NCBI RefSeq assembly: GCF_001742225.1
Contig: NZ_CP017075.1
Span: forward strand, 744,001 to 808,000
Length of the DNA: 64,000 nucleotides
Source of the DNA: Novosphingobium resinovorum
Lineage (GTDB): Bacteria > Pseudomonadota > Alphaproteobacteria > Sphingomonadales > Sphingomonadaceae
Reading direction: 5' to 3'
The notes under the pieces were generated by a model, which saw only the letters and a list, made by a program, of their open reading frames with translations, did not search any database and had not been told where the DNA came from. How positions within the stretch are numbered: the first letter of the stretch is position 1; the number at the start of each line of letters is the position of its first letter. The position numbers were made by a program, and so were the translations under genes. This document shows, in pieces, positions 105 to 52,759 of this stretch.

Positions 105-3100
105 CTAGCCCCGCGGCTTGCTGAACCAGAACGGAGGCATCGCGCGTTTGCGTGGCCAGATTTCGTCGAGCGTATCGCTCTCGTAGAGGCGTCCGTTCTT
201 CATGACCTGCCGGATCGACAGCGTGTTCGCGATGCCATCCAGCGGGTTGCGGTCCAGAATGACGAGGTCGGCATATTTGCCCGGCTCGAGGCTGCCGAAG
301 TCGGCGTCCCGTCCGATCGCGCGGGCACCGTCGATCGTCGCGGCGCGCAGCACTTCCAGCGGCGTCATCCCGCCCATGGCATAAGCCTGCATTTCCCAGT
401 GAGTGCCGAGGCCCGGGACTTCGCCATGCGCGCCGAGGCCGAGCAGGCCGCCCATGTGCGTAAAGCGGGCGGCGCTCTTCGCCACATCGGGGAACAGGTA
501 CTCGCCCGGATCGCGCCACTCGCGCTGCCAGAATTTCTGGTCGCGGAACCAGTCCGGGGCGAACCGGGCATACTTCGCATCGCCGTGCGGAGCGTCGCGC
601 GCGATGAAGTAGTTCTGCCCCGGAACGCCGCCATGGGTGATCTGCAGGGTCAGCGTATAGCTCGTGCCGCTGCGGGCGAGGAGTTGCAGCACATCGTCAT
701 GCAGTGTGGCGGGAGGGATGCTGTGCTCATTGCCTGAAAAGCCGTCGATGATGTGGGTGATGTCCAGCTTGCGGGACAGCGCGCCCTCGGTCGTGGGGTT
801 GAGGCCCAGTTCCCGCGCGGCCTCGACCACCCATTGCCGGGTGCGGCGGTTGCCGGTGCGGTACTGCTTGATGTTGCCGAGGCGGTAATCGTCCCGGTAG
901 CGGGAGAGGACCGCCTTCACTTCGGCCTTCGAGCGGAAGTCGTTGAAGGAAAAGACGGCCGGTCCCGTCGTCATGATGCGCGAGCCGATCATCTGGCCGC
1001 TGTCCACCAGGTCCTCGTAAGCCAGCATGTCGATGCTGAGCGAGGAGGGATCGAAGGCCAGCGTCACGCCGTAGGCCAGGTTCGCCGCCGGTCCCCAGTT
1101 GTGCATGTCGAGTACGTCGCGGCGGATGTCGGCGACGTGGTCGTGGATGTCGATGAAGCCGGGGACGATCGTTGCGCCTGCCAACTCACGGATCGCGGCA
1201 TCGGCGGGCACGGGAAAGCTGCCTCGGGGGCCAATGGCGCGGATGTGATCGTCCATGATCAGGATATCGGCGTCAGGGATGACCTCGTCGCCCTTCATGG
1301 TGATCGCCCGGGCACCGCGCAGCAGCAGGGTGCCTTGCGGCGTATCGCGCGGAACGGTGACGACGAGCGGCCGCGCCGCGCCGCCGACGTCCGCCGCGCG
1401 GGGCGGTGTGCCCGCATCATCGAGCCTGACGCCGGAGAGGGCGCGGCGGTGCAGGGTCGACCCCACAGACCACCATATCGTCCGGCCGTCCTGCGACCAT
1501 CCGAAGAAGTCGGCACCGACGTCGGTGATGCGGCGGTGCCTGACGGCGGGCGCGGTCAGGTTCACCGTCTCGCCGGCCTTGTCGGGCATGGTGAAGAGAT
1601 GCAGTTGCTGTGCGATATGGGCGAGCGCCCAGCGCCCGTCGGGGCTGATCCTCAGATCGTCGGCGGACGCGAGGCCTTGCGCGAAATACCAGTTCGGCCC
1701 GGCAGCTTGTACGGCAAGGTGGTCGCTAGCACGCCCCCGCCACTTCACGGCATGGACGCCGTCGCTCTCGTTCAGGTAGACTGTGTCCGGCAGCGGCCCG
1801 AAATGCGGCGTGCCGCCGATCCGGCCGCTCAGCACGACCTGCTCGCCGTCGCTGTCGCCGTCGTCATCCCCACCTCTGCCCAGCCGCACGAGGTCGGCGC
1901 TGCGCAACTGGCCGAATTCGACATAGCTGTTCAGCCGGTCCGCCTGAGGCGATCTGATGACGAGGACCGACGCGCCGTCAGGCGTGAACACGGGGTGCGT
2001 GTAGAACGCGGGGGTATCGGTCAGGCGCCGGGCAGGCCCACCGTCCAGCGGCTTCTCCCACACGAAGCCGCCGTCCTGCGCCGTCCAGGTGACATAGAGC
2101 AACCGCTTGCCGTCGGGCGACCAGCTGGGATGGAACTGCGGCGTCTCGTCGGCGTCGATGCGCTGCGGGCGTGCGCTGCCCTCGACCGGGGCTGTGTAGA
2201 GATGGCCCAGCGCGGAGAAGGCGACCGTCCTTCCATCGGGCGAGAGAGCGGGCGTCTGCATTAGCCGCGCGCGGACAGGGCCGGTCTCCTGCCGGATCGG
2301 ACGGCGGGTGAGGGGGGCGAGGTCCATGTCGATGCGAGCGGTGAACGGGATGGCCGTCGCCGTGCCGCTGGCGATATCGATGCGGCTGATACCGCCGCCC
2401 ATGTTCAGTACCAGCACCTTGTCGTCGGGCGTGAAGGCGAAGTGGGGGATGATGTCGCTCCAGGCCGATGCCTGAAGTTCGTCGTGATCGATCCGGATCA
2501 GTTCGCGGTCCATGCCGCTGCCGAGATCGCGAACGTGGAGGAACGTCCTGCCCACCCGGCGCATGCCGTAGGCCAGCGTGCGTCCGTCATGCGAGAGGAC
2601 GGGGCGAAAGGCGCTCGACTGGACGGGGCCGAGCCGAATGTCGCCGATTGCCTTGACGATCGTATCGTCGATGCCGGTCGCGAGGTCGCGGCGGGCGATC
2701 TGCCATTCGGCAAGGGTGTCGAAGTCCGGCGATCCCTTGAGCCTGGCGTAATAGAGCAAGCGGCCGTCCGCGCTCGGCATGAGTCCGAGGCTGTTGATCT
2801 TGTCCTCTGTCTGGCCAGCATCCGGCCAGTTCGGCAGCGCCGCGGTGCCGAACCTGTCGCTGCCGTCGGCGGCGAAGAGCCAGCCTTCGTAGGCATTGCG
2901 GTCCGGCCAGAAGCGGCTGACCCAGGCCGTCTTCCCGTCGCTGGACCAGACGGGGGATACGAATATCGGATCGTCGTCGTAGAAGCTGAGCTGCCGGGCA
3001 TCACCGCCATCGGCATCCATGACCCACAGGTTCTCGGCTCCCGATCGATCCGAGAGGAACAGGATGCGCCTGCCGTCGGGCGAGAAGGCGGGCTGGCTGT

Positions 3101-7580: not shown

Positions 7581-8981
7581 ATGCGCTTTTCGATCCCGGT
7601 CCTGCTTTCCCTCGGCGCCAGCCTGCTCGCATCGAGTACCGCGCAGGCGAAAGGCCATCCCGAGGCGGAAGCGCAAGTGCTTGACCTGTCGAAGCGCGCC
7701 ATCGCTCTTCGCTCGGTGCAGGGGCCGGGCAACAAGACCGGCGAAGTCGCGGCGCTGTTCCGCGATGCGCTGCTGAAAGCCGGGTGGACCGCCAGCGACA
7801 TCGAGATCGTGCCGCTCGGCGACACCGCCTACCTGATCGCGACGTGGAAGGGCAGCGACCCCGGCCTCAAGCCCCTCGTCATTTCCGCGCACATGGACGT
7901 GGTCGAGGCGAAACCGGAGGATTGGGAGCGCGATCCCTTCACCCCGGTGGTGGAGAACGGCTATCTCTTCGGGCGCGGCGCCAGCGACACCAAGTTCGAG
8001 GCGGCGCTGGCGCTGTCCTCGGTGATCGAACTGCGGCGCGAAGGGTTCCGGCCGAAACGCAGCATCGTCATCGCCTATTCGGGCGACGAGGAGACGACCA
8101 TGGATACCTCCAAGGTCATCGCCGAGCGGCTGAAGGGCGCGGAACTGGTGCTCAACGTCGACGGCTCCTCGGGCACGCTGTCGGAGGCGGGCAAGCCGCT
8201 CTACTGGAGCTGGCAGGGGGCCGAGAAGACTTACGTGGACTACAAGGTCGAGGTGACGAACCCCGGCGGTCACAGCTCCGCGCCCCGGCCCGATAACGCG
8301 ATCGTGCAACTGGCGCAGGCGATGGAGCGGATCGGCGCCTATCGCTTCAAGCCCGAACTCAACGACGTGACGCGCCAGTACTGGACCGGCGCCACGAAGA
8401 TCGAGCCCGACCCCAAGCTCGCGGCGGCAATGAAGGCCTTCGTTGCCAATCCGAACGATCCGGCAGCGTTGCAGGTGCTGCGCGCCAATCCCGCGACGGT
8501 CGGGCGCGTGTCGACGACTTGCGTGCCGACGATGATCTCGGGCGGCCATGCCCAGAACGCGCTGCCGCAGAGCGCGACGGCCAACATCAACTGCCGTATC
8601 TTCCCCGGCCACACCCGGCCCGAGATAATGGCGGAACTGGAGAAGGTGGCGGCGATGCCCGCGGCGAAGTTCACCGACGTGACCGGCGACGATTCGGTCG
8701 AGGCGCCCGCATCGCCGGTGCGGCCGGACTTCGTGGCGGCAGTGGGCAAGGCGGTAAAGGCGGCCTGGGGGCCGGTGCCGATCATCCCCTCGCAGTCCTC
8801 GGGTGCTTCGGACTCGATGTGGTATCGCGCGCTCGGCGTGCCGAGCTATGGCGCCAGCGCCTCGATGATCCGGGACTCCGACGAATTCGCCCATGGCCTC
8901 AACGAGCGCATCGGCCTGCTGAACATCGCGCCGGGCGTGGTCTACTACACCACCTTGCTGACGGACCTCGCGGGCAAGTGA
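7581..8981 (+). CDS. Secreted M20-family metallopeptidase
   Basis: This 466-residue M20/M28-type zinc aminoacylase or dipeptidase has a signal peptide (residues 1-22, ending STAQA). The metal-binding landmarks are ISAHMDVVE, GRGASDTKFEAA and YSGDEETTMDT, in the usual order, with the dimerisation domain inserted at about 220-340 (NPGGHSSAPRPDNA). The family cleaves small peptides or N-acyl amino acids. The ATG at 7581 is the first start that gives a clean signal peptide. The next gene starts inside its stop codon, so the two products are made together and probably degrade peptides in the periplasm. Confidence 0.9.
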   Translation: MRFSIPVLLSLGASLLASSTAQAKGHPEAEAQVLDLSKRAIALRSVQGPGNKTGEVAALFRDALLKAGWTASDIEIVPLGDTAYLIATWKGSDPGLKPLVISAHMDVVEAKPEDWERDPFTPVVENGYLFGRGASDTKFEAALALSSVIELRREGFRPKRSIVIAYSGDEETTMDTSKVIAERLKGAELVLNVDGSSGTLSEAGKPLYWSWQGAEKTYVDYKVEVTNPGGHSSAPRPDNAIVQLAQAMERIGAYRFKPELNDVTRQYWTGATKIEPDPKLAAAMKAFVANPNDPAALQVLRANPATVGRVSTTCVPTMISGGHAQNALPQSATANINCRIFPGHTRPEIMAELEKVAAMPAAKFTDVTGDDSVEAPASPVRPDFVAAVGKAVKAAWGPVPIIPSQSSGASDSMWYRALGVPSYGASASMIRDSDEFAHGLNERIGLLNIAPGVVYYTTLLTDLAGK

Positions 8982-10255
8982 GGGCGGCGGCGCTCGCTGC
9001 GGCTCTGGCTCTTGCGGGGCTGGCTGCTCCGGCGAGCGCGGCGTCGGTCTATGTCAGGGCAGGGCGCTTGCTCGACGTGGAGAGCGGCACTGCCAGCACC
9101 GGGCAATGCGTGCTGGTTGAGGGCGAGCGGGTGGCGAGGGTCGAGCCTTGCGCCGTGCCGCCGCCGGGTGCCGAAACGCTCGACTGGTCGGCCTATACGG
9201 TGCTGCCGGGGCTGATCGATCTCCACACGCACCTCGCCGATACCGGGCAGAGCGCCGACGTCGCCGCGCCGCTCAAGACTTCGCCGCAACTGACGGCGCT
9301 GATCGGCGCGCACAACGCGAAAGTGACGCTGGAGGCGGGCTTCACCACGGTGCGCGATGTCGGCACCTATCGCGGGCTGACTGACGTGGCCTTGCGTGAT
9401 GCCATCGCGCAGGGGCTGGTGCCGGGGCCGCGCATGTTCGTCGCGGGGGCCTACATCACGTCGCCGGGCGGCGGCGGCGAACTCAACGGCATCGTGCCCA
9501 ACGACCAGCTTCCCGCCGACATGCGCCTCGGCGTCGTCCACAATGCCGGTGAAGCGCGCGAGAAGGCGCAGTACCTGTTCGATCACGGCGCCGACTTCAT
9601 CAAGATGATCGCCACCGGCGCGGTCCTCGCGATCGGCACCGAGCCGGGGCAGATCGAATTGAGCGACGACGAGATGCGCGCCGTCGTGGACGTCGCGAAG
9701 GCGCACGGCAGCTACGCGACCGCCCATGCCCACGGCGCGGCGGGCATCAAGGCGGCGATCCGCTCCGGCGTACACAGCATCGAACACGCCAGCCTCATCG
9801 ACGATGAGGGCCTCGCCATGGCGAAGAAGGCGGGCGTCTGGCTGGTCATGGACATCTACGACGGCGACTGGATCGACGAGCAGGGTACGCGCGAAGGCTG
9901 GCCGCAGGAATACTTGCGCAAGAACCGCGAGACGACGCAGCAGCAACGCGACGGCTTCGCCAAGGCAGTGAAGCGGGGTGTGAAGCTAGGCTTTGGCACC
10001 GACGCGGGTGTCTATCCGCACGGGCTGAATGCGCGGCAGTTCGCGTACATGGTCCGCTACGGGATGACCCCGGCGCAGGCGATCCGGGCCGCTACGATCG
10101 ATGCCGCCGCGCTGATCGGGCATGAGAAGGAACTGGGCTCGATCGCGCCGGGCAAGTTCGCCGACATGATCGCAGTGGAAGGTGATCCGCTGTCCGATGT
10201 GCGTGTGCTGGAGCAGGTCGTCCACGTGATGAAGGCCGGTGCGGTAGCGAAGTAG
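8978..10255 (+). CDS. Secreted amidohydrolase (imidazolonepropionase/prolidase-like)
   Basis: This 425-residue protein begins with GTG at 8978, overlapping the stop of the M20 peptidase by four bases (GTGA), a translational-coupling arrangement. Residues 1-21 form a signal peptide ending APASA. The amidohydrolase metal site is seen in GLIDLHTHLAD, in the carbamylated-lysine segment DFIKMIATGA, in AHAHGAAG and IEHASLID, and in the final aspartate of GTDAGVYPHG. Members of this branch act as Xaa-Pro or other dipeptidases or lactamases. Together with the upstream peptidase it suggests a dipeptide-degrading pair. Confidence 0.88.
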   Translation: MRAAALAAALALAGLAAPASAASVYVRAGRLLDVESGTASTGQCVLVEGERVARVEPCAVPPPGAETLDWSAYTVLPGLIDLHTHLADTGQSADVAAPLKTSPQLTALIGAHNAKVTLEAGFTTVRDVGTYRGLTDVALRDAIAQGLVPGPRMFVAGAYITSPGGGGELNGIVPNDQLPADMRLGVVHNAGEAREKAQYLFDHGADFIKMIATGAVLAIGTEPGQIELSDDEMRAVVDVAKAHGSYATAHAHGAAGIKAAIRSGVHSIEHASLIDDEGLAMAKKAGVWLVMDIYDGDWIDEQGTREGWPQEYLRKNRETTQQQRDGFAKAVKRGVKLGFGTDAGVYPHGLNARQFAYMVRYGMTPAQAIRAATIDAAALIGHEKELGSIAPGKFADMIAVEGDPLSDVRVLEQVVHVMKAGAVAK

Positions 10256-42656: not shown

Positions 42657-44543
42657 TCACGACGCATGTCTGGTTGCCATTTGCCTGAGACGGCTATCGA
42701 ATTCCAGCTTTCTCTTCAGCAGTCGCTGCTGTTCGGCGAATGCCGAGTCGGAAAGCTCTGATTCGAACCGCGCCGTTGCTTTTGCCAGTGCCGCTTCGAG
42801 TACTGGTCGCTCGACGAGGAGGTCGATCGCCTGGGCCAGTTCGGCTGCCGCCTGTTCCTCGCTCGTTTCGGGAATCAGGAAGCCGAATCTAAGCCCTGCG
42901 TACTCGGCGGCCTTGGGTTGCACCAGGCCGTTGTCTCGCAATATGGTGGCGAGAACCTCGGTTTCAAGCGCGTCTGCGGCGCCGCAGCAGTCCACCAGTG
43001 TCTCGAAGCGCGGATCGAGACCGGGGGTGCGGGCGAGCGCTTCCGCGTGGCGCGCAAGTTGCGCGGGCCAGCGAATGAGCCCGGCGATGATCGCGGCGGA
43101 GAGCGCATCGCGGGTGCCTGCGCCTGCGAATCGGGTGTTCAGGCGCTCGATCGATTCGGGCGAGGAGGGGGCAGGGCTCGGCTTGCCGTTCCATTTGCCG
43201 CTTCCGCGCTGGTTCTGGCGAGGCTGGAAGTTTCCCCCACCACCTTGCGCTCCACCCTGTTGCCAGCGATTCTCCCGGCGCGGGAAGGCGAATTCGGAAT
43301 ATCGGTCCTGCAGTTCGCGACGGTAAAGCCCGGCGATGTCGGGGTGCTGGATCGTCTCGACGTGGGCCATCAGGCGGGCCTTGAGGCCGGCCTTGTCCTC
43401 GGGCGTATTGAGCGGGACGGCATCTCGCTCCGCCTCCCACAGCACTTCGACGAGGGACTTCGCCTCGCCGAGAATGTCCTCCATCGCGCGGGAGCCGCGC
43501 TGCTTGATGAGATCGTCGGGGTCCAGCCCCTCGGGCAGGCGGACGATTCGCAGGGAGTGGGCAGGGCGCAGCAGCGGCAGGGCGCGGGTGATCGCGCGCA
43601 TCGCCGCGCGCTGGCCGGCCGTGTCGCCGTCGAAGCACAGGGTCGGCGTCTCGACATGGCGCCAGAGCATCTCGATCTGGTGCTCGGTCAGCGCAGTGCC
43701 CAGCGGCGCGACGGCATCGGCGATCCCGGCGGCGGCCAGCGCGATGACGTCCATGTAGCCCTCGACCACCACGATCCGCCCCGACTGGCGCGCGGCGGGC
43801 GCGGCGCGGTGCAGGTTGTAGAGCGTGCGGCCCTTGTCGAACAGCGGGGTATCGGGCGAGTTGAGGTACTTGGGCGCATCGGTCTTGCCCTTGGTGAGGA
43901 TGCGGCCACCGAAGGCGATGACCCGGCCGCGCGCATCCTCGATGGGGAGCATCAGGCGGCCCCGAAAACGGTCGTAGGGATCGCGTTCCTCGACGGCGAT
44001 CCGCAGGCCCGCCTCGATCAGCATGGGCTCGGGGAAGCGGGAGAGGGCCTCTTTCAGTGCCTGCCGCCCCTCGGGCGCATAGCCGAAGCCGAAGCGCTGC
44101 ACGGTATGCGCATCGAATCCGCGCGTGGCGAGATAGGCGCGCGCCGCCGCGCCTTCTGCGCCGGACAGGCTGGCCTTGAACCACGCCTGCGCGGCGGCCA
44201 TCACGTCGTGCAGGCTGTCGCGCTTCTCCGCCGCGCGCGCCATCTGCGGATCGGGCGCGGGGACGTCCATCCCGGCCTCGGCCGCCAGTTCCTTGACCGC
44301 GTCCATGAAGGCGAGGCCCTGGTGGTCGGTCATCCAGCGGATGGCGTCGCCATGGGCGCCGCAGCCGAAGCAGTGGTAGAACCCTTTCTCGTCGTTGACG
44401 TAGAAGCTGGGCGAGTTTTCGTTATGGAAAGGGCAGCAGGCCCGATGCTCGCGCCCCGCCTTCTGCAGCCGCACGGAGCGGCCGATCAGAGCGGAAAGCG
44501 CGGTGCGGGACCGGAGTTGGTCGAGCCATTGGGGGGTGAGCAC
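42657..44543 (-). CDS. dnaG: DNA primase
   Basis: The 628-residue enzyme makes RNA primers at the replication fork. The zinc-binding domain has CPFH (residues 37-40) and CFGC (58-61). The RNA polymerase core follows (RFRGRLMLPIEDARGRVIAFGGR), with TOPRIM motifs VVVEGYMDVIAL and CFDGDTAGQRA. A Gly/Gln-rich linker leads to the DnaB-binding C-terminal domain. It begins with GTG at 44543; no in-frame ATG fits the family start. It is the middle gene of yqeY-dnaG-rpoD. Confidence 0.97.
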   Translation of the reverse strand: MLTPQWLDQLRSRTALSALIGRSVRLQKAGREHRACCPFHNENSPSFYVNDEKGFYHCFGCGAHGDAIRWMTDHQGLAFMDAVKELAAEAGMDVPAPDPQMARAAEKRDSLHDVMAAAQAWFKASLSGAEGAAARAYLATRGFDAHTVQRFGFGYAPEGRQALKEALSRFPEPMLIEAGLRIAVEERDPYDRFRGRLMLPIEDARGRVIAFGGRILTKGKTDAPKYLNSPDTPLFDKGRTLYNLHRAAPAARQSGRIVVVEGYMDVIALAAAGIADAVAPLGTALTEHQIEMLWRHVETPTLCFDGDTAGQRAAMRAITRALPLLRPAHSLRIVRLPEGLDPDDLIKQRGSRAMEDILGEAKSLVEVLWEAERDAVPLNTPEDKAGLKARLMAHVETIQHPDIAGLYRRELQDRYSEFAFPRRENRWQQGGAQGGGGNFQPRQNQRGSGKWNGKPSPAPSSPESIERLNTRFAGAGTRDALSAAIIAGLIRWPAQLARHAEALARTPGLDPRFETLVDCCGAADALETEVLATILRDNGLVQPKAAEYAGLRFGFLIPETSEEQAAAELAQAIDLLVERPVLEAALAKATARFESELSDSAFAEQQRLLKRKLEFDSRLRQMATRHAS

Positions 44544-44566
44544 GAGACCTGCCGCCTGTCAGCAAA

Positions 44567-45019
44567 TCAGGCCAGCGCCGCCTTAACCCAGCCGCTCGCC
44601 TTGGTCATGTCGAGCACGGTGCCGTGGCGGGCTTTCAGTTCGCCCATGACCTTGCCCATGTCCTTCATGCCGCTGGCGCCGGTCTCCGCCTTGATCGCCT
44701 CGATGGCGGCCATGGTTTCTTCCTCGGACAACTGGGCGGGGAGGAAGGTTTCGATGACTTCCAGCTCGGCCTGTTCGTCGGCAGCCTTTTCGGGGCGGCC
44801 GCCCTGCTCGAACAGGGTGATCGATTCGCGGCGCTGCTTCACCATCTTCTGCAGCACGTCGATCACCAGCGCGTCGTCGTCGGGCAGCGTGTCGGCGGTG
44901 CGCAGCTCGATGTCGCGGTCCTTGATCTTTGCAAGGATGAGGCGGACAGTGGCGAGGCGCTGCTTCTCACCGGCCTTCATGGCGGTGATCTGCGCGGCCT
45001 TGATCGAATCACGAAGCAT
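44567..45019 (-). CDS. GatB/YqeY domain protein
   Basis: The 150-residue protein is a YqeY homologue, related to the tail domain of GatB amidotransferase. Landmarks are the start MLRDSIKAAQITAMKAGEKQ, then RLATVRLILAKIKDRDIE, and the Gly-rich end GMKDMGKVMGELKARHG. Its role is uncertain; tRNA binding is inferred from the domain. It starts the leftward operon ahead of dnaG (23-base gap) and rpoD. The 183-base gap to the divergent carA gene holds both promoters. Confidence 0.93.
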   Translation of the reverse strand: MLRDSIKAAQITAMKAGEKQRLATVRLILAKIKDRDIELRTADTLPDDDALVIDVLQKMVKQRRESITLFEQGGRPEKAADEQAELEVIETFLPAQLSEEETMAAIEAIKAETGASGMKDMGKVMGELKARHGTVLDMTKASGWVKAALA

Positions 45020-45202
45020 GGGTTTTCCTGCAAATGAACTGAGTGAACGGGGTGGTGCGTGTGGCAAAGCTAGCAACCTGCGCGCCGATTTGCACGTGCG
45101 CGCCCAAATTGCACCCCCACACCTTGACGCGGTGCACAACCCTCTCTAGCGGCCGCGTCTTAGCACACAACGTTAGAAACGCCGTCAACGGAGCGACCCA
45201 CC

Positions 45203-46369
45203 ATGGCCGACGCCGCATCTTCGCTTGCGCCCAAACCCGAAGGGGCAACGGGCGTTCTGGTTCTCAGCGACGGACACGTCGTCTGGGGACGTGGTTTCGG
45301 TCATGTCGGAGAGTCCGTGGGTGAAGTCTGCTTCAACACCGCGATGACCGGCTACCAGGAAGTCATGACCGACCCGTCCTATGCGGGCCAGATCGTCACT
45401 TTTACTTTCCCGCATATCGGCAATGTCGGCGTGAACGAGGAAGACCTCGAATCGCTGGTCGACGGCGCCGTCGGCTGCGTCGTCCGCGAGGACGTGACGC
45501 TGCCTTCGAACTTCCGTTCCGCAGGCGGCTACGCCGAGTGGCTGGCGAGCAAGGGCAAGGTCGGCCTTTCGGGCGTCGACACCCGCGCGCTCACCCGCCG
45601 CATCCGCAGCGCCGGTGCGCCCAACGCCGTCATCGCCCATGACCCCGAAGGCAACTTCGACATTCCCGCGCTCATCAAGCGGGCGCAGGAATGGCCGGGC
45701 CTCGAAGGCATGGACCTTGCCAAGCTGGTCAGCCGCGAAATCCAGCAGGGCTGGGAAGGCTCGACTTGGACACTCGGTGAGGGCTACGGCACTGCCGACG
45801 GCGAGACCCGCCCGCACGTCGTCGCGATCGACTACGGCGCCAAGGACAACATTTTCCGCAATCTCGTGAAGGCTGGCGCGCGCGTCACCGTGGTTCCGGC
45901 CGAGGCTTCGCTGGAAACCATCCTGTCGCTCGAACCCGCTGGCGTGTTCCTCTCGAACGGCCCCGGCGACCCGGCGGCGACCGGCGCTTATGCCGTGCCC
46001 GTAATCGCGGCGCTGCTGGAGCGTGACATGCCGGTCTTCGGCATCTGCCTCGGTCACCAGATGCTCGGCATCGCGGCGGGCGCCAAGACAGCCAAGATGT
46101 TCCAGGGCCATCGCGGCGCCAACCATCCGGTCAAGCGCCATGCCGACGGCGTGGTCGAGATCACCTCGATGAACCACGGCTTCGCGGTGGACAACACCTG
46201 CCTGCCGGACAATGTCGAGGAAACCCACGTCTCGCTGTTCGACGGCACCAACTGCGGCATCGCGATCAAGGGCAAGCGCGCTTTCGGCGTGCAGTACCAC
46301 CCCGAGGCGAGCCCCGGCCCGCAGGACAGCTTCTACCTGTTCGAGAAGTTCGTGGGTATGCTCGGCTGA
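45203..46369 (+). CDS. carA: Carbamoyl-phosphate synthase small (glutaminase) subunit
   Basis: The 388-residue subunit releases ammonia from glutamine for carbamoyl phosphate, used in arginine and pyrimidine synthesis. The nucleophile is Cys282 in GICLGHQMLG, with the His and Glu in GVQYHPEASPGP. The N-terminal CarA domain (GEVCFNTAMTGYQEVMTDPSY) is complete. The partner carB is not adjacent: two small genes occupy 46516-47547 between them. The start at 45203 lies about eight bases after GGAGCGA. Confidence 0.97.
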   Translation: MADAASSLAPKPEGATGVLVLSDGHVVWGRGFGHVGESVGEVCFNTAMTGYQEVMTDPSYAGQIVTFTFPHIGNVGVNEEDLESLVDGAVGCVVREDVTLPSNFRSAGGYAEWLASKGKVGLSGVDTRALTRRIRSAGAPNAVIAHDPEGNFDIPALIKRAQEWPGLEGMDLAKLVSREIQQGWEGSTWTLGEGYGTADGETRPHVVAIDYGAKDNIFRNLVKAGARVTVVPAEASLETILSLEPAGVFLSNGPGDPAATGAYAVPVIAALLERDMPVFGICLGHQMLGIAAGAKTAKMFQGHRGANHPVKRHADGVVEITSMNHGFAVDNTCLPDNVEETHVSLFDGTNCGIAIKGKRAFGVQYHPEASPGPQDSFYLFEKFVGMLG

Positions 46370-46386
46370 TGGTCGCAGCGGGTCAG

Positions 46387-46513
46387 GCTCCCTTGGCGGC
46401 GTTCGCGCCGTCCCACGCATCGGCGATGATTGCCGGTGCGGCCAAGGGAGCTTTCGACCCGGCCCGGCGGATTGCCTATGCATCCAGGCACCTCATAACA
46501 AAGAAGGTGCCTG
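46387..46513 (+). promoter_or_regulatory. Two hairpins in the carA downstream leader, second covering a ribosome site
   Basis: An 11-bp perfect stem (GCTCCCTTGGC, 46387-46397, with 46441-46451) is followed by a nine-bp stem (CAGGCACCT, 46485-46493, with 46505-46513). The right arm of the second contains the AAGGTG ribosome site of the next gene and ends two bases before its ATG. The structures could regulate translation of that gene or weaken read-through from carA. No T-run follows either stem. Confidence 0.55.
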
Positions 46514-46515
46514 AA

Positions 46516-46902
46516 ATGACTAGCGCAATGTCCGCTCTGATCGACCACATGATCGCCTACTACGTCGCCGGGCCGGCGGCCGAACTCTCGGTCGCGCCGC
46601 GCTTTTATCCCTACGGCGAACTGCAGCTCATCTTCGAGGACAAGGTCTCCGTCGCCGTCCGCAAGTTCGGCCCGAAGGTGCGCAAGCACTCCAAGGAAGC
46701 CGGCAAGGCCTTCATCGATCGCATGATCGAGACGGGCGCCTGGTCCACCAACCAGGGCGAGTACGGCGGCTCGATGCACCAGTTCCAGGCCGACCGCTTT
46801 CGCGAAGTCATTCGCACTGAGCAGGACGCCAACCCCATCATCCAGAACGCGAAAGCCGATCCTGACTACTGGGACAAGGCCTTCGGCGATCTTATGGGTT
46901 GA
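46516..46902 (+). CDS. Conserved-type hypothetical protein between carA and carB
   Basis: This 128-residue soluble protein starts MTSAMSALIDHMIAYYVAGP and contains PRFYPYGELQLIFEDKVSVAVRKFG followed by a helical part and a Tyr/Trp-containing end. It has normal high-GC codon use, unlike its downstream neighbour. I chose ATG at 46516, with AAGAAGGTG about seven bases upstream. An ATG overlapping the carA stop (46369) is in frame but would add 49 atypical residues. I recognise no domain. Confidence 0.7.
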   Translation: MTSAMSALIDHMIAYYVAGPAAELSVAPRFYPYGELQLIFEDKVSVAVRKFGPKVRKHSKEAGKAFIDRMIETGAWSTNQGEYGGSMHQFQADRFREVIRTEQDANPIIQNAKADPDYWDKAFGDLMG

Positions 46903-46908
46903 AGCAAA

Positions 46909-47547
46909 ATGAGCGGGCAGAACGGGTATATGATCAAGCAAGCTGAATTAGAGGCAGTCGTTCTGCTCGCATTGTACAATTATTTTCAAGTTCACAGCGG
47001 AAGTTTGACGATCAGCCAAATCAAGAGACTTTTGAATTTTGACGTGTCTGAACGGCGCGTAGAGATGGCGGTCTCAAATCTTGCGTCGAGTGGCTATGTT
47101 GATGGTGAATATAGCTACGTTGATGAAAATGGTTTTGCGATTTCTGACGCTGGTTACAAATATGCTGAAGAACTCGAAGGCCGGGCTAATGGACGGAAAG
47201 ATGCTGACGAATCTGAAGAGGTTCCAGCCTCTGATCGCGTAGTCGGATTGGATCATAATAGTCGTCAGTTTATCGAGGTGCGGAGCGAGGTGACTTCGCT
47301 TGCCAAACAAATTTCCCTCGCAAATGATGTGGGAAATCTAAGTTCGCGCGAGAAACTCGTAGCTGAGCAAGAAGTTACAGCGCTCGGGGATGCGCTGGAC
47401 CGTGAGTTTATCCGGCCAAAGGAAATTTGGCTACGTTCCAAGTTAACCCTGCAATGGATAGGGAAGGAGGCTGCCGCCGCCGTTATAGGTACTGCGGCAC
47501 TCGCTCTCCTTGCGCTCATTGCTCATTTGCTAGGCTTTGCGATCTAA
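46909..47547 (+). CDS. AT-rich hypothetical protein: winged-helix-like domain plus C-terminal membrane segment
   Basis: The 212-residue protein has an N-terminal part that looks like a winged-helix DNA- or protein-binding domain (about residues 8-95: [20 protein letters not shown], then [20 protein letters not shown]), a charged linker, a helical middle, and one C-terminal membrane segment ([21 protein letters not shown]). Sampled lines have about 35, 55 and 38 percent GC, against roughly 65 percent around it, so it is very likely acquired. It starts six bases after the preceding stop, and its stop lies one base before the carB ATG. An in-frame ATG at 46930 is an alternative start. Function unknown. 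Confidence 0.85.
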
Positions 47548-47548
47548 C

Positions 47549-50500
47549 ATGCCCAAACGTACAGACATCTCCTCGATCCTCGTCATCGGCGCAGGCCCGA
47601 TCATCATTGGTCAGGCCTGCGAGTTCGACTATTCGGGCACTCAGGCGATCAAGGCGCTGAAGGAGGACGGTTACCGGGTGATCCTGGTGAACTCGAACCC
47701 CGCCACGATCATGACCGACCCGGACATGGCCGACGCCACTTACGTGGAGCCGATCACTCCCGAGGTCGTCGCGCGCATCATCGAGAAGGAGCGCCCCGAT
47801 GCGGTGCTCCCCACGATGGGCGGCCAGACCGCGCTCAACTGCGCGCTGGCGCTGTTCAACGACGGCACGCTGGAGAAGTTCGGCGTCCAGATGATCGGCG
47901 CCGACGCCGACGCGATCGACAAGGCCGAGGATCGCCAGCGCTTCCGCGACGCGATGGACAAGATCGGCCTCAACTCGGCGCGTTCGGGCGTGGCCCATAC
48001 GCTGGACGAGGCGTTCGCGGTGCTTGAGCGCACCGGTCTGCCCTCGATCATCCGCCCCAGCTTCACGATGGGCGGCACCGGCGGCGGCATCGCCTACAAC
48101 AAGGCCGAGTTCGAGGCGATCGTGCGTTCGGGCCTCGATGCCTCGCCGACCACCGAAGTGCTGATCGAGGAATCGCTGCTCGGCTGGAAAGAGTACGAGA
48201 TGGAGGTCGTGCGCGACCGCCATGACAACTGCATCATCATCTGCTCGATCGAGAACGTCGATCCGATGGGCGTCCACACGGGCGATTCGATCACCGTCGC
48301 CCCGGCACTGACGCTGACCGACAAGGAATACCAGATCATGCGCAACGCCTCGATCGAGGTGCTGCGCGAGATCGGCGTCGAGACCGGCGGTTCCAACGTC
48401 CAGTTCGCGGTGAACCCCAAGGACGGCCGCCTGATCGTCATCGAGATGAACCCGCGCGTGTCGCGTTCCTCGGCGCTGGCCTCGAAGGCCACCGGCTTCC
48501 CGATCGCGCGCGTCGCCGCCAAGCTGGCGGTCGGCTACACGCTCGACGAGATCATGAACGAGATCACCGGCGCGACGCCCGCCGCGTTCGAGCCGACCAT
48601 CGACTACGTCGTCACCAAGATCCCGCGCTTCGCCTTCGAGAAGTTCAAGGGCGCCAAGAACGACCTCACCACCGCGATGAAGTCGGTCGGCGAAGTCATG
48701 GCGATCGGCCGCAACATCAAGGAATCGATGCAGAAGGCCCTGCGCGGCCTCGAAACCGGCCTTGACGGCTTCAACCGCGTGCCCGCGCTGGAAGGCGCCG
48801 GCCGTGACGTCATCACCGCCGCTCTTTCGCGCGCCACGCCGGAGCGTCTGCTGCACGCCGCGCAGGCCTTCCGCGAAGGCTTCACCGTGGACGAGATCCA
48901 CGCGATCGCCCACTACGACAAGTGGTTCCTGCGCCACATCGAGGAGATCATCGCCGAGGAAACCAAGATCCTCGCTGAAGGTCTGCCCAACGATGCGGCG
49001 GGCATGCGCAAGCTGAAGGCGATGGGCTTCTCCGACAAGCGCCTCGCCACGCTGGCGGTGCGTTCGGTCGGCGTCGCGGGCGGTCTGGGCGAGACCCAGG
49101 CCAAGCGCTCGGGCCTGCTGCATGACGCGCTGCGCGCCATGGCCGGTGCCACCAGCGAGAAGGAAGTGCGCCAGCTTCGCCGCAAGCTGGGCGTCGTCCC
49201 CGTTTTCAAGCGCATCGACAGCTGCGCCGCCGAGTTCGAGGCGGTGACGCCCTACATGTACTCGACCTACGAGGCCCCGATCTTCGGCGAGCCCGAGGAC
49301 GAGGCCATGCCGTCCGACCGCAAGAAGATCGTGATCCTCGGCGGCGGTCCGAACCGCATCGGGCAGGGCATCGAGTTCGACTACTGCTGCGTCCACGCCT
49401 GCTTCGCCCTGTCCGAGGCCGGCTACGAGACCATCATGGTCAACTGCAACCCCGAGACGGTTTCGACCGACTACGACACCTCGGACCGTCTCTACTTCGA
49501 GCCACTGACTGCCGAGGACGTGCTGGAAATCCTGCGCGTCGAGCAGCAGAGCGGCGAACTCGTCGGCGTGCTGGTGCAGTTCGGCGGCCAGACTCCGCTC
49601 AAGCTGGCGCAGGCGCTGGAAGACGAGGGCATTCCGATCCTCGGCACCTCGCCCGACGCGATCGACCTTGCCGAAGACCGCGAGCGGTTCTCGGCTCTGG
49701 TCGACAAGCTCGGCCTCAAGCAGCCCGCCAACGGCATTGCCCGCAGCCGCGACGAGGCGGTGAACGTCGCCAATCGCATCGGCTACCCGGTGCTGATGCG
49801 CCCAAGCTACGTGCTGGGCGGCCGCGCGATGGAGATCGTCGACAGCGAACAGCAGCTCGACGACTACATCACCACCGCCGTGCAGGTCTCGGGCGACAGC
49901 CCGGTCCTCATCGACCAGTACCTGCGCGACGCCATCGAGTGCGACGTCGATGCCCTGTGCGACGGCGAGCGCGTGGTCGTGGCAGGCGTCATGCAGCACA
50001 TCGAGGAAGCGGGCATCCACTCCGGCGACAGCGCCTGTACCCTGCCGCCTTACAGCCTGCCGCCCGAGATCATCGCCGAAATGGAGCGTCAGGCCGAGAA
50101 GCTGGCGTTCGGCCTTAACGTCAAGGGCCTGATGAACATCCAGTTCGCGGTGAAGGACGGCGAGGTCTACCTCATCGAGGTCAACCCGCGCGCCTCGCGC
50201 ACGGTGCCCTTCGTTGCCAAGGCGCTGGGCCAGCCGGTCGCCAAGATCGCTGCGCGCGTCATGGCGGGCGAGAAGCTGGACACCTTCCCGCCGTTCAAGC
50301 GCGACCTGTCGTACATGGCGGTCAAGGAAGCCGTGTTCCCGTTCAACCGCTTCCCCGGCGTCGATCCGGTGCTCAGCCCCGAGATGAAGTCCACCGGCGA
50401 AGTCATGGGAATCGATAGCGATTTCGCTCGCGCCTTCGGCAAGGCGCAGCTTGGCGCCGGCATGAAGCTGCCGGTCGAGGGCACCGTGTTCGTTTCGGTC

Positions 50501-50872
50501 AAGGACAGCGACAAGCCGGTGATCCTGCCCGCGGTGAAGACGCTGATCGAGCAGGGCTTCCGCATTGTCGCCACCAGCGGCACGCAGAAGTATCTGGCCG
50601 AGGCGGGCCTGCAGGTCGATCTCGTGAACAAGGTGGCCGAAGGCCGTCCGCACATCGTCGACAAGATCGTCGATGGCGAGATCGCGCTGATCTTCAATAC
50701 CACCGAAGGCTGGCAGAGCCTGGTGGACTCCCAGTCGATCCGCGCCTCGGCGCTGACCGGCAAGGTTTCGATCTTCACCACGGCGGCGGCCAGTGTCGCT
50801 GCGGCGGAGGCGATCGCGACAATTCGCGGGAGCAAACTTGAAGTGCGATCGTTGCAGGACTACTATAGCTGA
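47549..50872 (+). CDS. carB: Carbamoyl-phosphate synthase large subunit
   Basis: The 1107-residue subunit makes carbamoyl phosphate from bicarbonate, ammonia and two ATP. It has two homologous ATP-grasp halves, marked by [20 protein letters not shown] and [20 protein letters not shown]. An oligomerisation domain lies between them, and a C-terminal MGS-like regulatory domain (about 970-1107, [17 protein letters not shown]) follows. ATG at 47549 gives the family start MPKRTDISS. It begins one base after the AT-rich gene, so translation probably depends on coupling to it. Confidence 0.98.
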
Positions 50873-50909
50873 AATCGATCTCGCCTCCCCCCACATCGCA
50901 GCAGATCGG

Positions 50910-50930
50910 CCCCGCCCGCCTAGGGCGGGG
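50910..50930 (+). terminator. Hairpin after carB
   Basis: CCCCGCCC pairs with GGGCGGGG around five bases, 37 bases after the carB stop. No T-run follows, so termination may be partial and some transcripts may continue into greA. Confidence 0.6.
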
Positions 50931-50986
50931 ACAGGAAACTAGTCGCAAGACCTTTGGGGGAAGGCCGCAGGAGGAAATGAATTAGA

Positions 50987-51463
50987 ATGGCAAGTGTCGA
51001 AAAGCTGCCGATGCTCGCGGAAGGTTACGAGCGGATGACCGCGGACCTCAAGGCGCTTCGCGATGAGCGTCCGCTCATCGTCGACGCCATCGAGGAAGCG
51101 CGTGCCCACGGCGATCTTTCGGAAAACGCCGAGTACCACGCCGCCAAGGAGCGCCAGGGCCAGGTCGAGGCGACCATCGCCGACCTTGAGGACAAGATCA
51201 CGCGCGCGCAGATCATCGATCCCGCGACGCTGTCGGGCGACAAGATCATCTTCGGCGCCACCATCACTCTTCTCGACGATGACGAGAAGCCGGTGAAGTA
51301 CCAGATCGTCGGCCCTTACGAAGCGGACGCGAAGGTCGGCCGCATCAGCTACAACTCGCCGCTCGGCAAGGCGCTGATCGGCCGCAAGGTCGAGGAAGAG
51401 ATCGAAGTGACCGTCCCGTCGGGCGACAAGTTCTACCTGGTGCAGAAGATCGAATTCATCTGA
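50987..51463 (+). CDS. greA: Transcription elongation factor GreA
   Basis: The 158-residue factor enters the RNA polymerase secondary channel and stimulates cleavage of backtracked RNA. The coiled-coil N-terminal domain (residues 1-75) has the tip acidic pair in [19 protein letters not shown]. The FKBP-like C-terminal domain ends in [23 protein letters not shown] lies upstream of ATG 50987. It follows carB, a frequent alphaproteobacterial order, and ends at a strong terminator. Confidence 0.97.
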
Positions 51464-51484
51464 TCCTCTCCGCTTCAGGATAAA

Positions 51485-51516
51485 GAAAAAGGCCGGCGTT
51501 TCCGCCGGCCTTTTTC
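51485..51516. terminator. Bidirectional intrinsic terminator after greA
   Basis: A perfect 14-bp stem (GAAAAAGGCCGGCG and complement) with loop TTTC and A/T runs on both sides ends both the rightward greA and the leftward DUF4170 gene. Confidence 0.95.
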
Positions 51517-51527
51517 GTTTCCGCTGC

Positions 51528-51749
51528 TCAGGCTGCCGGCAGTTCCGGCTCGAGCAGGCGATGAAGATGCACGATCACGTACTTCATCTCGGCATCATCG
51601 ACGGTGCGCTGCGCGGCCGACTTCCAGGCATTCTGGGCCTCGGCGAAATCGGGATAGACACCGACGAGGTCGAGAGCCTTGAGGTCGGTGAATTCGAGGC
51701 TGCGCGGATCCTTGACCCGGCCGCCCATTACAAGGTGAAGCTTCTGCAT
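51528..51749 (-). CDS. DUF4170 family protein
   Basis: This 73-residue protein (MQKLHLVMGGRVKDPRSLEF, then LVGVYPDFAEAQNAWKSAAQ and MKYVIVHLHRLLEPE) has the pattern of the DUF4170 family of small alphaproteobacterial proteins without a known role. It has no signal peptide or membrane segment. Its stop abuts the terminator shared with greA. The 137-base gap upstream has nothing else I can identify. Confidence 0.85.
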   Translation of the reverse strand: MQKLHLVMGGRVKDPRSLEFTDLKALDLVGVYPDFAEAQNAWKSAAQRTVDDAEMKYVIVHLHRLLEPELPAA

Positions 51750-51886
51750 GGGAGAGTGCCGCTTTCCTGCTGGTTGGGAGATAAGCGGCCTATAATTTTG
51801 GAGAGGTCAAGGAGCAAGTGCACAAGACGCACCTTGATCGCGCAGTAAGCGAAAAGGTGCGCCTTTAGCTGAAATTCACGAGCCGT

Positions 51887-52438
51887 TTACGATCTGACAC
51901 GCTTCTTGAGGTCTTCGGCCATGTGCAGAACCTTGGTCGAGCGGACAGCCGCCGCGTCTCCAAGGCGGTTGGCGGTGTCGGCAGCCGCATCGCCAAGCCT
52001 GCTGGCTCGGCGGGCAGTCGCACGGCCGAGGGCACTTGCGGCGCCTACTGCAGCCAGGCCGTACTTTTCGAGATTGAGAATGGCCAGATCGCTGACCTTT
52101 TCAGCGCTGTCCGCGAACTTCGAGGCCTGCTTGCGTGCATCGATGCCGATGTCATGCGCCTTGTCGCCCGCCTTGCGGCCGAGTACGACGCTGGCGGTGC
52201 CGGCAGCCTCCGCGAGGTCCAGCGTGCGCGCGACGATCCGCCTGCTGACGCGGCGCGGCAGGAGGGCGTTCACCGCGACGCCGACGGCGACACCGCCTGC
52301 GACGGTCAGTACCGGGTGCTTCTTGACGAAGGCGATGACTTTGTCAGACGGCGTGGGCTCGGCGATTTTCGCGGGCAGGGCGACGACGTTTGCGCCTTTA
52401 CCGGCAGCGATCGGGGTGGACGACTCGGTCTTGCTCAC
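51887..52438 (-). CDS. Hypothetical membrane-associated helical protein (YqjD-like operon)
   Basis: The 183-residue protein has a short hydrophobic segment (HPVLTVAGGVAVGVAVNALL, about residues 41-60). A long Ala-rich amphipathic helical part follows (repeats of the kind RLGDAAADTANRLGDAA near the C-terminus). I recognise no named family. It is the last gene of a leftward four-gene cluster with a DUF883-like protein and a DUF1469/holin-X protein. A role at the membrane is inferred from composition and neighbours. Confidence 0.75.
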   Translation of the reverse strand: MSKTESSTPIAAGKGANVVALPAKIAEPTPSDKVIAFVKKHPVLTVAGGVAVGVAVNALLPRRVSRRIVARTLDLAEAAGTASVVLGRKAGDKAHDIGIDARKQASKFADSAEKVSDLAILNLEKYGLAAVGAASALGRATARRASRLGDAAADTANRLGDAAAVRSTKVLHMAEDLKKRVRS

Positions 52439-52456
52439 CTGGCGTTCCTTCCTTGG

Positions 52457-52759
52457 TCAAGAGACCCGGTCGCGCGCACTGTCCAACAGGCGCTGCGCCA
52501 GGTCGATAATGGGATTACGCAGAAACCAAAGCACGAGCGCTGCCAAGGTTCCGCCGATTGCGGCGGGATGCTCCTCGACAACGGCAACGGCCTCGTCGAA
52601 CATCAGCTTGGCCTGATCGAGCGCCTCGTCAGCGATCCGGCCGCCGATCCCGCGCTCGTCCATGTCGGCCCTGAAGGCCTGGTAATGTCCGTCGAACTTC
52701 GCCTTCGCGGCGTCGCGCGCGGCCCGGTCCACCAGAACCTGCGCTGCCTGCTTGCCCAT
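52457..52759 (-). CDS. Hypothetical small protein with one membrane segment (YqjD-like operon)
   Basis: The 100-residue protein has a helical, charged N-terminal half (VDRAARDAAKAKFDGHYQAF) and a single membrane segment (HPAAIGGTLAALVLWFLRNPI, about residues 64-84). The layout of a soluble helix and a membrane anchor resembles the ribosome-anchoring ElaB/YqjD proteins, but I cannot assign the family. It lies 18 bases before the next gene in the cluster. Confidence 0.75.
   Translation of the reverse strand: MGKQAAQVLVDRAARDAAKAKFDGHYQAFRADMDERGIGGRIADEALDQAKLMFDEAVAVVEEHPAAIGGTLAALVLWFLRNPIIDLAQRLLDSARDRVS

Follow-up and report, generated by a model that had tools for sequence, protein, structure and literature searches.

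orfY and its surroundings in the carAB operon

The window analyzed here, a 64,000-nucleotide stretch of the Novosphingobium resinovorum genome, contains between carA and carB a small gene, orfY (46909..47547, plus strand), which we regard, with a probability of about 0.72, as a horizontally acquired cassette of an undescribed modular family residing in a hypervariable carA–carB slot. The genes are arranged on one strand in the order carA, a 146-base spacer, orfX, orfY, carB, and greA. The left wall of the slot is carA (45203..46369, plus strand), encoding the small subunit of carbamoyl-phosphate synthase (CPS; Pfam GATase, 5.5e-49; CPSase_sm_chain, 2.5e-47), and the right wall is carB (47549..50872, plus strand), which, like greA downstream of it (50987-51463, plus strand), was named from its translation and which we take to encode the large subunit. 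Matches to carB were found in all 61 genomes searched, the own genome included, with a weak one in G018; in another genome a second frame (G004:C6:8777-9748; 332 aa, 93% identity to the N-terminal part of CarB) lies apart from the main carB and could be an assembly piece. Immediately after greA, the minus strand of 51479-51515 gives a weak Rfam match to ctRNA_p42d (24.2 bits against a cut-off of 50; E-value, 0.083), perhaps a hairpin.

The 146-base spacer (46370..46515, plus strand) is highly conserved across 11 aligned sequences and strongly foldable (fold z, −5.52), with six of the 37 predicted pairs changed on both sides. Its frame is open with that of orfX (46516..46902, plus strand), which is open back to an ATG at 46369. 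Because the three codon positions of the spacer vary about equally (0.21, 0.27, and 0.21, i.e., no periodicity), an RNA or DNA element fits it better than a peptide; it has no Rfam match, and under strict filters the spacer model R1 found one copy each in three of 41 genomes, including the own one. With a host-like GC content of 0.62, orfX was found in 10 of the 61 genomes (own included) and in 39 of 139 distinct carA–carB intervals of the genus.

orfY was listed among the open reading frames of the window with 212 codons. Since its homologues begin at the second ATG (46930), the protein is probably 205 aa long. Judging from the intact frame and from homologues of up to 47% identity in which specific residues are conserved, the frame is real, beyond chance, and it is the sole match of the family profile in its own genome (E-value, 8.5e-26). 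An earlier note, made on this DNA from the letters alone, had described an AT-rich gene fitted with base-level precision into GC-rich surroundings, and both points hold. The GC content of 46930-47547 is 0.484 (GC3, 0.451), in comparison with 0.657 (GC3, 0.833) for carA, 0.656 (GC3, 0.904) for carB, and 0.649 for the whole window; the orfX stop codon ends at 46902, six bases before the first orfY ATG at 46909, and the orfY stop codon TAA (47545-47547) is separated by a single C from the carB ATG at 47549. The placement between carA and carB needs a correction, in that orfY is located inside this interval but its direct left neighbour is orfX, not carA.

Predicted structure of the orfY protein

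The AlphaFold model of orfY consists of an N-terminal winged-helix domain and a C-terminal four-helix module with a PASDR motif at its start (PASDR is a module name coined in this analysis; WTG below likewise denotes a motif). The N-terminal domain (46930..47199, plus strand; residues 1–90 of the 205-aa form) shows the order helix–strand–helix–helix–hairpin–helix in a confident model, with structural matches across the whole domain, and is, as modeled, a winged helix, as had been supposed from the sequence. In sequence, orfY has no Pfam match above the cut-off: PaaX reached an E-value of 0.031 (15 bits against a cut-off of 24.8), PadR and MarR gave no match at E-values up to 1, and a PadR match in one relative (L184; E-value, 0.0012) is likewise below the Pfam cut-off. 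In comparison with winged-helix regulators of the PadR/HxlR/MarR type, orfY thus falls below the Pfam cut-offs in sequence and carries an extra C-terminal module of an undescribed family. Neither of the outcomes named beforehand as fatal to the earlier description, an orthologue of the same composition in all related genomes or a fold other than a winged helix, was encountered.

The C-terminal PASDR module (47215..47544, plus strand; from A6, comprising 42 sequences, and the model) is predicted with a pLDDT of 92.9 and a pTM of 0.84. It begins with PASDR-x-V-x(4)-N, has an N before helix 2, and runs through four helices to the C terminus; in Pfam and NCBIfam only single weak matches were found among the 42 members, and none for the module of orfY. 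The last helix was previously thought to be a membrane segment. It is indeed hydrophobic (Kyte–Doolittle hydropathy, 2.33), but values of at least 1.6, regarded as transmembrane-like, occur in just 11 of the 42 family members, which leaves a membrane anchor of orfY uncertain, as does the model, in which this helix is packed in the bundle.

The two parts of these proteins vary very differently. When 51 proteins (one G011 protein being counted twice, as L037 and L170) were clustered with links at an E-value of 1e-3, the N-terminal parts fell into two large clusters, four pairs, and eight singletons, and the C-terminal parts into one PASDR cluster of 44 and one WTG cluster of seven. The WTG module is unrelated to PASDR and occurs both in slot genes and elsewhere (L032, L094, L098, L204, and L206, and also L203, L205, and L207); in L211 a WTG gene adjoins a phage-type integrase. 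The same winged helix is joined to PASDR in L177 and to WTG in L206 (35% identity over 89 aa; E-value, 1e-17). The PASDR module together with its variable N-terminal part is best read as an undescribed modular family. In L200 (~1501-2751, minus strand), outside carAB, a PASDR-like module is apparently fused to a protein that by eye looks like diaminopimelate epimerase, with one internal stop within the profile match.

Location of the family in the carA–carB gap

Profile searches of genomes of the genus, family, and class yielded 46 distinct loci with the PASDR module, 41 of which are in the carA–carB gap; the five others are L194, L195, L196, L199, and L200. In the genus, profile A2 (13 sequences, the genomic context of 11 of which was unknown when it was built) matched 15 of 195 genomes, own included, and all 15 loci are located in the gap, as is the Erythrobacter locus L043. 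The slot proteins of two loci from this genus group, L056 and L057, are identical in sequence to the Novosphingobium proteins P0014 and P0015, in keeping with Novosphingobium as the probable genus. A wider profile matched 25 of 397 genomes of the family (two counted before; 21 of the 23 new loci in the gap) and 8 of 385 genomes of the class (one counted before; four of the seven new loci in the gap, belonging to three further families). Because the wider profile already included slot sequences, the genus search with A2 is the cleaner positional test. The fit to the neighbouring genes was measured in 37 slot loci from the genus and the family (L043 among them): 34 have a 4-nt overlap between their start and the carA stop, and in 27 the stop codon is either adjacent to the carB start or overlaps it. 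The window is atypical in that orfX comes first and orfY second.

Such a strict position could mean that the gene functions with carA and carB, its winged helix or its PASDR module influencing the synthesis or activity of CPS. The 41 loci within carAB, spread over several families of the class, agree with a regulator of this kind; co-translation with both CPS subunits would suit a partner, and winged helices are frequently transcription regulators. However, most of the genomes searched in the genus, family, and class do without the module, five of its loci are elsewhere, unrelated genes occupy the same slot, and the N-terminal domains differ among members, which makes a car-specific regulator unlikely compared with an acquired cassette.

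Contents and turnover of the slot

The 139 genus intervals were drawn from carB matches, with 176 of the 195 genomes among the matches listed and part of them retrieved. Fifteen contain the module (two of them also orfX), 37 contain orfX only, 54 have other content, and 33 are shorter than 100 bp, among them 13 in which carA directly overlaps carB. The other content includes a DUF6680 protein, an RraB-like protein, and genes with a C-terminal WTG module. We then compared this distribution with a carA tree of 127 intervals, from which 12 of the 139 were omitted for too little carA, including four of the 15 module rows (the window among them); four loci (L030, L031, L042, and L110) had no carA in reach. 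The module requires 11 changes for 11 carriers (shuffled mean, 10.6), orfX 11 changes for 34 carriers (30.1), and the short intervals 22 changes for 33 intervals (29.1). Based on these counts against the shuffles, the module is scattered as if at random, and orfX is an older resident of the slot that is mostly inherited vertically.

The last 15 bases of carA are identical in 12 of the 15 module intervals and in 22 of the 54 with other inserts, but in only one of the 37 with orfX alone and in none of the 33 short ones. A separate comparison of carA 3′ ends was partly circular, as its groups were picked by their last nine bases. Beyond the genus set, seven of 22 slot loci have the same 15-base end; the carA of the window lacks it. 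On the tree it shows 23 changes for 31 carriers, equal to the minimum of 200 shuffles (mean, 27.7), and it is therefore partly inherited. It either travels with the inserts or is constrained by the overlapping start site.

In three loci (L048, L133, and L176) the first insert is followed by a decayed second copy of the first ~23–39 codons of carB, then by a pair that by eye looks like the VapBC type, and finally by intact carB; the decayed copies look like traces of recurrent insertion at the 5′ end of carB.

It could be argued from this variety that the slot merely tolerates neutral or selfish cargo: a short spacer suffices between the two genes, and AT-rich arrivals would be kept because their imprecise removal breaks carB translation. 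Very different genes share the slot, the inserts overlap the genes on both sides, and the direct overlap of carA and carB in 13 of the 139 intervals fits as well. Random landing does not, however, predict that one family with conserved residues recurs in many genera, nor that its module has a confidently predicted fold, and we consider neutral cargo rather improbable, if somewhat less so than a car-specific regulator.

Probable import of orfY by recombination

A sister genome, G029, possesses orfX and lacks orfY. It is closely related to the window in this region (99% identity in the stretch of carA compared; CarB identity rounding to 100%) and has a spacer of its own between orfX and carB, which is replaced in the window. 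This genome, together with the profile matches in just 15 of the 195 genus genomes, bears out the earlier suggestion that orfY was acquired. The differences between the two genomes are concentrated at the edges of the insert. orfX has 18 differences, 11 of them within 90 bases of its 3′ end (Fisher p, 5e-4, for a stretch chosen post hoc), and carB has 77, of which eight are in the first 60 bases (p, 6e-5, with the stretch again chosen post hoc); the latter eight lie within 51 nt and are followed by none up to nt 210. The orfX 3′ end (46816..46902, plus strand) and the carB start (47549..47599, plus strand) are thus the probable left and right edges of an imported tract. Such clusters are the expected trace of recombination with a donor carrying orfX–orfY–carB, and this step, as far as the sequences tell, probably took place. 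The cassette would have entered by homologous recombination in the flanking ends of orfX or carA and of carB, replacing the native orfX–carB spacer.

Over a length of 1067 bases ahead of orfX, 21 differences to G029 were counted; 15 of them lie within one 228-base stretch of carA. This further cluster speaks against a special role of the insert edges and means that recombination may be frequent in the region. The stretch (~45463-45690) points to another tract of recombination, distinct from the first.

A long-standing member of the carAB operon, inherited vertically with many losses, would also be found at the same place in several families of the class. This explanation is very improbable, given that the module ORFs are AT-rich in all of the 37 slot loci measured (mean GC, 0.46; range, 0.33–0.53), that the carA tree gives as many changes as carriers, that G029 has orfX followed by its own spacer to carB, and that differences are concentrated on both sides of the insert, even if carA contains a cluster too.

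Expression of orfY and its possible coupling to carB

Because the stop codon is one base from the carB start, expression and retention of orfY may be tied to the essential operon, through co-transcription and translational coupling with carB. A scan of 44900-47700 for terminator-like sites gave none (2.7 expected); a single promoter-like site, at 47300-47328, is at the level of chance (0.7 expected). A dependence of carB on read-through of orfY, as proposed previously, is plausible from this arrangement. For carB, the Shine–Dalgarno energy is predicted to be −2.4 in the window and −4.0 in G029; throughout the genus, however, the energy is not weaker in tight-ended intervals (n = 46) than in the others (n = 80; p = 0.94), and this null comparison weakens the coupling reading.

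Similar gene orders are known from other bacteria. In Xanthomonas citri an unknown ORF of the carA–orf–carB–greA–rpfE operon is co-transcribed with carA and carB and overlaps carA by one base (PMC4619228), and the order carA–orf–carB–greA in Pseudomonas aeruginosa is cited in the same paper, according to which the two ORFs are mutually dissimilar. As in both of these operons, carA and carB of the window enclose an ORF in the same orientation and are followed by greA. The comparison is one of gene order, not of sequence, and an exchange of inserts is not described in the parts of PMC4619228 consulted. In the literature searched, we found no description of the carA–carB slot of sphingomonads.

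Possible role in genetic conflict

The pattern described above, in which the front part varies, the back part stays constant, and AT-rich imports come and go, is typical of conflict genes. It is conceivable that orfY is a single-gene conflict factor directed against phages or mobile elements, in which the exchangeable N-terminal domain would sense or bind a target and the helical PASDR module would relay the response by oligomerising or by acting on the membrane; we offer this function tentatively, the odds being somewhat against it. Hints come from the off-slot loci. In L195, an AbiJ_NTD4 gene (8878-9639, minus strand) matching the PADLOC candidate PDC-S32 (E-value, 1.8e-50) lies ~0.6 kb from the PASDR gene, and in L194 the PASDR gene adjoins a resolvase; by eye, and with a small part searched, no defence or mobile gene was recognised around those of L196, L199, and L200. 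The likeness to PDC-S32/AbiJ_NTD4 proteins is confined to the neighbourhood of L195, as orfY itself has no match in PADLOC 2.0.0 at E-values up to 0.1, and two of its relatives have weak matches only (0.016 and 0.0029). No relative was found in phage and plasmid records, or in viral contigs searched with one short pattern; in PHROG, one of the 42 modules weakly matches an unnamed family (0.0013). Inspection by eye of the ORFs in 44000-52500 revealed no integrase.

Variable defence hotspots are fixed core locations with accessory genes that change among related genomes. The carA–carB slot likewise combines a fixed core position with changing accessory genes, but differs from such hotspots in that its occupant is often just one gene, which overlaps the genes on both sides and lies within the operon of one essential enzyme. 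A broader proposal, doubtful and held with slightly less conviction than the conflict role of orfY itself, is that the carA–carB junction is a dedicated alphaproteobacterial socket for single-gene conflict or immune proteins with swappable sensors and helical modules, which would be exchanged through recombination in the essential genes on either side and shielded from loss, since their imprecise removal would stop carB translation.

If the acquired-cassette reading of orfY is true, foreign genes would have a reusable docking site in an essential enzyme operon that has no recognised integrase in its vicinity, and reading carA–carB gaps would be a route to many small unannotated accessory proteins. 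It also raises the question of what keeps one undescribed domain almost entirely within this gap. Should the inserts be antiphage, a class of single-gene defence would have been overlooked because it is located inside housekeeping operons and not in islands.
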